Below are positions 18,384-18,604 of a stretch of 20,258 bases of DNA, in pieces. The notes beneath the pieces are model-generated. The model was not told the DNA's origin. It saw nothing but the letters and a program-made list of their open reading frames with translations, and searched no databases. The stretch covers positions 1 through 20,258 of IMG/VR virus record IMGVR_UViG_3300025300_000128, one strand, 5' to 3'. Source of the DNA: a virus. A program made the position numbers and the translations under genes. How positions within the stretch are numbered: position 1 is the first letter of the stretch; each line of letters opens with the position of its first letter.

Positions 18384-18581
18384 TTGACCTCCCATGTTTT
18401 TTACATTTTCGGCATGGGCGACTAAGTGGGAGAGAGGTCGCTAAAGTATCCTTCCACAGTGATAGGCGTAGGTTTTGATTGGACCTTTGTCGGTGTTTAG
18501 GTTCAAGTCTCCTTCCCCACGGGCTATCACCGGAGAAACACGTTACGTTAGTCCTCCCCTTACTGGGGGAGGCACCTTTTT
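18384..18581 (+). ncRNA. Candidate structured RNA or attenuator leader
   Basis: About 200 bases without a gene, in a region where genes otherwise overlap. Several long pairings are possible: CCCATG with CATGGG (18391-18418), GACCTC with GAGGTC (18386-18439), GTGGGAG (18427-18433) with CTTCCAC (18451-18457), and GTGATAG (18459-18465) enclosing AGGTTT/GGACCT and closing with CTATCAC (18524-18530). It ends in a strong terminator. CCTTCCCC (18511-18518) could also pair with GGGGGAGG (18565-18572) of the terminator, giving an alternative fold. It could be a stand-alone small RNA or a regulatory leader of the gene at 18605. No known RNA family was recognised. Confidence 0.5.
18553..18581 (+). terminator. 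Intrinsic terminator upstream of the 113-residue gene
   Basis: CCTCCCC (18553-18559) pairs with GGGGAGG (18566-18572), followed by CACC and TTTTT. It lies only 23 bases before the next start codon, as in attenuators. Confidence 0.82.
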
Positions 18582-18604
18582 GAATCGGAAGCAAAGCGCC
18601 CAAA

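Follow-up and report, generated by a model that had tools for sequence, protein, structure and literature searches.

Does a structured RNA help phages to control their DNA replication, or even to perform it? This question is made testable by the stretch at positions 18384-18604 of a 20,258-base virus record, the whole of which was analysed here and is referred to as the window. The stretch is devoid of any credible gene. An earlier note had described it as about 200 gene-free bases with long complementary arms, and every feature that it listed is indeed present (Table 1). That description did not include the pseudoknot of P1 and P2 (18419-18457) or the hairpin P4 (18537-18549). Judged by folding energy, the segment is unremarkable: on the plus strand its minimum free energy has a z of -0.34, with 66 of 200 shuffled sequences equally stable, and on the minus strand (z = -1.33) it is not distinct from shuffles. 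What places it beyond chance, and overwhelmingly so, is its evolution; the case shows that folding energy alone would discard a genuine RNA. That the segment belongs to a real family of structured RNAs we regard as practically certain. The partly tRNA-like appearance, also pointed out before, is a coincidence: even close relatives do not conserve GGTTCAAGTC, and neither the window nor six relatives contain a tRNA or tmRNA gene recognised by ARAGORN. Nor does ARAGORN recognise a tRNA that we had suspected by eye beside locus L156.

Our search for relatives started from those of the 113-aa protein encoded downstream. A few near relatives share the sharply conserved segment; more distant ones, in other gene contexts, are without it. 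A 16-base pattern from the conserved core retrieved members upstream of differing genes, a 3' core pattern yielded further members, the upstream nuclease gene as query returned 80 loci, and another 3' pattern brought up 84 loci, not all of which have the nuclease gene. The first covariance model detected additional diverged copies directly 3' of the nuclease gene, always on the same strand. The RNA is carried by 34 of the 80 nuclease loci, in all cases downstream and on the gene strand, and each of the 35 positive records (up to 70 kb) holds a single copy. Absence from relatives with the same flanking genes had been named beforehand as evidence against a conserved RNA. Where relatives of the downstream gene occur in different surroundings, the RNA is indeed absent, but the loci sharing the upstream nuclease have the RNA in the number just given. 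Dependence on the 113-aa protein was rejected because its relatives at L004 and L008-L014 lack the RNA. Altogether, IMG/VR phage contigs contain at least 41 distinct versions of P1/P2. Close members all come from uncultivated phages; blastn with the RNA gave no match in cultured phages, and the covariance model had no hit in five records of phages whose polymerases are related. In bacterial genomes, 21 matches to the 16-mer were judged to be chance because they lack the 3' core. The RNA is thus carried by many uncultivated tailed phages, whose origin we suspect to be marine, and is conserved across very divergent ones.

The family has a common architecture of roughly 150-200 nt, composed of P1, an H-type pseudoknot helix P2, a bulged P3, P4 and P5. 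In the 5' half, P1 (4-6 bp) is followed by AA, the P2 5' strand, AGA or AGU, P1' and a linker with or without an extra hairpin; AUC or AACC, the P2 3' strand, an A and the long P3 with its 3' bulge come next. The 3' half consists of CGRNNAA, P4 with the loop RCGNNAY, UAGNCC, P5 and GGCAMC.

Table 1. Positions of genes and RNA elements in and around the gene-free segment of the window
Feature	Position	Strand	Sequence	Remark
VRR-NUC-type nuclease gene	17774..18070	+		usual upstream neighbour
P0	18391..18418	+	CCCATG (18391-18396)/CATGGG (18413-18418)	peripheral hairpin
P1	18419..18440	+	CGACT (18419-18423)/GGTCG (18436-18440)	loop: AA (18424-18425), P2 5' strand, AGA (18433-18435)
P2	18426..18457	+	GTGGGAG (18426-18432)/CTTCCAC (18451-18457)	H-type pseudoknot with P1; conserved AUC precedes 3' strand
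P3	18459..18530	+	GTGATAG (18459-18465)/CTATCAC (18524-18530)	long hairpin with internal bulge; apical part variable
Pyrimidine box	18510..18519	+	TCCTTCCCCA	3' side of P3 loop; putative alternative partner of P5 3' arm
Competing segment	18511-18518		CCTTCCCC	possible partner of GGGGGAGG
Core	18531..18537	+	CGGAGAA (family CGRNNAA)	single-stranded; conserved in alignments A2, A5 and A6
P4	18537..18549	+	AAC (18537-18539)-ACGTTAC-GTT (18547-18549)	small hairpin; 7-nt loop RCGNNAY
Lead into P5	18549..18554	+	UAGNCC	U-A-G and both C (nearly) invariant
P5, terminator-like hairpin	18553..18572	+	CCTCCCC/GGGGGAGG	GC-rich; then conserved GGCAMC
P5 3' arm	18565-18572		GGGGGAGG	8 pairs possible with CCTTCCCC, 1 of them G.U
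T-run	18577-18581			23 nt before ATG at 18605; pattern scan also flags hairpin and T-run as a terminator
Downstream gene, 113 aa	18605..18946	+		matches no family; start 32 nt past P5

How firmly does evolution support this fold? In an alignment of 24 diverse members made by sequence alone (A6), 94.8% of cells are paired, a value that none of 500 shuffles reaches (75.3 +- 1.0% after shuffling), and both sides have changed in 27 of 33 pairs. Sliding the partner by 1-3 columns reduces pairing to 39-48%, a control that is somewhat favourable because the structure was drawn with the same sequences in view; this does not explain the size of the effect or the number of double changes. Within the 13 sequences of the window's subfamily, the corresponding figures are 98.7% paired, 87.8 +- 0.9% shuffled and 38-56% slid. 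A separate test, in which the strands of 41 distinct versions were placed by flanking motifs only, agrees with the alignment even though the motif rule misplaced several strands (P1, 0.917 vs 0.643 +- 0.028; P2, 0.893 vs 0.813 +- 0.011). Moreover, when the window's subfamily is left out of a covariance model, the window is still recovered, at 45 bits (E = 1.4e-10). A lack of covariation in homologs had been named in advance as evidence against a structured RNA, and the homologs do covary.

Each helix contributes to this signal. P1, whose closing pair is mostly U.G or C-G, occurs as GACT/GGTC, GGCT/GGCC, ATTACT/GGTAAT, AACCC/GGGTT, GACGT/GCGTT and AGGCC/GGCCT. P2 is paired in 98.6% of cells among the 24 divergent sequences, with double changes in 5 of 6 pairs (GCTGTG/CACAGC, GCAGTG/CACTGC, GCGGTG/CACCGC, GTAGAG/CTTTAC, GTTGTG/CGCAAC, ACTGTG/CGCAGT). 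Double changes affect all 7 P3 pairs in the window's subfamily and 11 of 12 in the wide alignment. P4 appears as AAC/GUU, AGC/GCU, AACC/GGUU or AACU/AGUU and is paired in 92.7% of cells in the 24-member alignment and in 100% in the subfamily; for P5, the 24-member alignment gives 95.1%, with double changes in 4 of 6 pairs. The peripheral P0 is found in the window's subfamily and in the L082/L102/L147 group, not elsewhere. Its stem adjoins P1 in most of 13 sequences, its arms differ between sequences (CTCCGCAGG/CCTGTGGAG, CCGTGAGG/CCTCACGG, CTACCAAG/CTTGGTAG), and its mean score over the 13 is 9.8 vs 5.8 when shuffled. A long-range CUAA:UUAG pairing considered for the window's subfamily was dropped, because members that have CCAAG or GUAAG do not preserve it.

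The covariation also bears on the nature of the folded molecule. Read as the plus strand, P1 and P2 contain many G.U pairs and few A.C mismatches (26 vs 6 in P2, 34 vs 4 in P1, 60 vs 10 in both together), which indicates an RNA transcribed codirectionally with the genes and, judging from these counts, excludes a DNA cruciform or the antisense strand.

Where does this RNA reside? The product of the usual upstream gene matches phrog_93 endonuclease (E = 3e-18), phrog_5702 Holliday junction resolvase (E = 1e-5) and PDB 4qbo (E = 0.0019), and has no Pfam match. In loci of this VRR-NUC type, an AAA ATPase, a DUF2201 metallopeptidase and several ORFs precede the nuclease and the RNA; small ORFs, DUF6378, a family A DNA polymerase and a RecB-like nuclease follow, and then HNH, SNF2 helicase and primase-like genes, in the same order in long contigs. 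Gene names in the window itself have Pfam and PHROG support, whereas those in other contigs are based on resemblance by eye and on an annotated Rhizobium phage module. The window encodes the AAA ATPase and then the DUF2201 metallopeptidase/VWA-like protein at 12056-14434; related contigs conserve this pair upstream of the RNA, and it occurs in Rhizobium phage RHph_TM3_14A as well. Two proteins of 307-313 aa without PHROG match (14984-16859) have apparent relatives at the equivalent place in related contigs.

In 21 of 34 loci, P1 starts between -22 and +10 nt relative to the nuclease stop codon, and in another nine it starts 26-36 nt past this codon; the remaining four, among them the window's subfamily, have a gap of 346-424 nt between nuclease and RNA, with room for an ORF. 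In the window, this gap holds a 109-aa ORF (18054-18383) that matches no family. At L003, the RNA lies directly 3' of the nuclease gene with no ORF between, and the 109-aa ORF therefore resembles an insertion, or else a loss. On the other side, the next start codon follows P5 at a median distance of 24 nt. A riboswitch would be expected 5' of the gene that it controls, with a consistent target function; the RNA lies nearly always just 5' of a gene, but those genes differ widely among members. Other subgroups place it 3' of a DNA polymerase or RecB-like gene. One such group is GC-rich and has another P1 loop (L157, L159, L203 and L216; CAGYGGGCGGUGGG and similar); it adjoins DNA polymerase, RecB-like or SNF2 genes and not the usual nuclease. 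A role as 3'UTR of the nuclease gene was rejected, both because an ORF may intervene (window, L005, L035) and because of these other subgroups. It is the replication locus, and no single downstream gene, to which the RNA belongs. Its orientation on the coding strand, its start near the nuclease stop codon and the PolA, RecB-like and SNF2 genes downstream point to a polycistronic replication mRNA, in which it appears usually to fill an intercistronic gap with little spare DNA on either side.

How might such an RNA act? We give about even chances to a cis-acting, riboswitch- or operator-like element that would control the mRNA between cistrons; this estimate concerns the mechanism, and our near certainty concerns the existence of the family. 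The reading builds on the fold, its conservation, the coding-strand orientation and the usual placement beside nuclease and replication genes, all of which are direct observations. We envision a scenario whereby the pseudoknotted 5' half, which would lie beside or within the stretch where translation of the upstream gene ends, either is bound by a phage protein or small ligand or responds to the ribosome as it terminates. The 3' half might then adopt either of two states, with P5 formed or with the P5 3' arm captured by the pyrimidine box of P3, and this state would set translation of the next cistron, some 20-30 nt downstream, and in some members perhaps also whether transcription continues. 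By analogy with T4 gene 32, replication proteins could in this way be tuned to the amount of replicating DNA.

Known systems offer partial precedents. In T4, gp32 represses its own message via a pseudoknot, and the gp43 DNA polymerase does so via a hairpin operator, so phage replication genes can be controlled by mRNA structure (PMC3014915). The gene 32 operators of T4, T2 and RB69 share with our RNA an H-type pseudoknot, here P1/P2, in phage mRNA upstream of a start codon, there in the control of a replication protein; the T4 pseudoknot, however, is small and precedes one gene, for a single-stranded DNA-binding protein, by 67 nt (PMC3014915). The RNA described here adds P3, P4 and P5, is conserved in sequence, lies between the nuclease and varied small genes, and shows no sequence relation to the T4 element. 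With the pseudoknotted-aptamer riboswitches in Rfam it has in common a compact pseudoknot, a conserved unpaired core within a covarying aptamer-like fold, and possibly mutually exclusive 3' helices near the next start codon. It differs from them in lacking an Rfam match, in its one copy per genome and in having no constant metabolic target gene. The RepZ switch of IncI-type plasmids is likewise an intercistronic pseudoknot that controls a replication gene, with ribosome movement on an upstream reading frame as a possible input (Asano & Mizobuchi 1998, cited in PMC10724649); it is a plasmid system with an antisense RNA and matches ours in neither sequence nor architecture.

Against control in cis stands the lack of any gene that is constant downstream, and hence of a constant target. 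Shine-Dalgarno sequestration by the P3 loop also failed when tested directly: it had looked convincing by eye and was rejected by permutation (p = 0.33 and 0.69; targeted p = 0.41). The competing pairing proposed earlier between 18511-18518 and 18565-18572 fares better. Across the family, the 3' side of the P3 loop pairs with its own P5 3' arm better than with swapped arms (composition-normalised p 0.003-0.004; double-centred p 0.0003), and the first 25 loop bases, used as negative control, show no preference for the P5 arm (p 0.80). The signal leans on few members, with p 0.008 without the two best and p = 0.09 without the four best, which include the window, where the pairing is strongest (9 bp). 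An alternative P3-P5 pairing thus has moderate support from covariation.

Alternatively, a trans-acting small RNA or RNP scaffold might be cut from the operon mRNA as a stable species that binds host or phage proteins or RNAs, an option that we consider possible though doubtful. It would fit the single copy per genome, the unpaired nucleotides conserved across great divergence while downstream genes vary, and the subgroups beside polymerase, RecB-like or SNF2 genes, since the exact neighbour within the module would matter little. In most members, the overlap of P1 with the upstream stop codon leaves no room for a separate promoter, no sigma-70-like promoter lies near the window's RNA, and a conserved terminator is absent; such an RNA would therefore need processing. 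Being larger than the T4 operators, unrelated to them in sequence and without a fixed downstream gene, the RNA could also serve as a working part of replication and recombination, excised or bound to the template and acting with the nuclease and PolA/RecB/SNF2 as primer, scaffold or guide-like cofactor. We hold this to be unlikely, although it would explain why the RNA stays in the module, once per genome, while adjacent genes change.

The classical attenuator of the earlier note, with P5 as intrinsic terminator and the P3 box as antiterminator, is quite unlikely. In its favour are the window's P5 with its U-run, the 8-9 bp that the P3 box and the P5 3' arm can form there, and the family-wide own-arm signal. 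The hairpin and T-run are present, but "strong" was a generous description, because the T-run begins 4 nt past the stem and is missing in most relatives. A run of at least four T within 14 nt of P5 occurs in only 8 of 35 representatives, so that P5 is terminator-like in a minority, and the stem is followed by the conserved GGCAMC instead of U. Termination therefore cannot be the shared function, and transcription attenuation finds no support as a general mechanism, though the window's subfamily may possess it as an additional feature. The broader suggestion of an attenuator or riboswitch-like leader, or a phage small RNA, had named the right kind of element.

It is very unlikely that the folded transcript stays on its template as an origin RNA and primes a phage PolA-type polymerase in the manner of ColE1 RNA II. 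Its single copy, its location within the PolA/RecB/SNF2/primase block or at the start of that block, and the family A-like polymerase encoded close by in longer contigs would suit such a role; in four long contigs, however, the turning point of the cumulative GC skew lies about 10 kb away from the RNA, in line with gene direction, and no conserved hybrid-forming tract is seen downstream. A DNA-level element, such as a recombination linker or protein-binding site with merely RNA-like inverted repeats, might account for gene content that changes downstream as at recombination boundaries, but is barely credible, being largely refuted, to judge by the alignments, by the pseudoknot and the strand-asymmetric, G.U-rich covariation.

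Control in cis, our preferred reading, may well follow a known mode of action even though the RNA family is new. Rfam 15 (4227 models, gathering thresholds) gives no match in the window or in ten divergent members, and at E<=10 the segment yields only a chance miRNA match outside the RNA. A resemblance to a known ribozyme or to the glycine riboswitch has no Rfam support. The literature that was searched does not describe an RNA of this sort next to a VRR-NUC gene or within this replication module. Like manA, wcaG, PhotoRC-II and Ocean-V/VI, candidate RNAs of marine metagenomes and cyanophages (PMC2864571), the RNA is a structured RNA of environmental phages identified by comparative genomics; those of the candidates that have Rfam models do not match it. 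Ocean-VI (2010) has no accession in the table of PMC2864571 and so falls, together with the 2017 list of 224 candidate RNAs, outside a comparison that covers Rfam 15. Within that comparison, the strongly supported and widespread pseudoknotted fold has no relative and adds a new RNA family to tailed phages.

At L066, a perfect 18-nt palindrome, GTTAGTCCTAGGACTAAC, lies about 10 nt past P5 (oriented) and repeats the conserved UUAGUCC of the RNA. At L068-L071 and L074, directly 3' of the nuclease gene, P3', the core, P4 and P5 are kept, and P1/P2 are lost or swapped for one long hairpin (GCAGRTAGG/CCTAYCTGC). This subgroup represents a natural half-deletion and is useful for testing the parts of the RNA.
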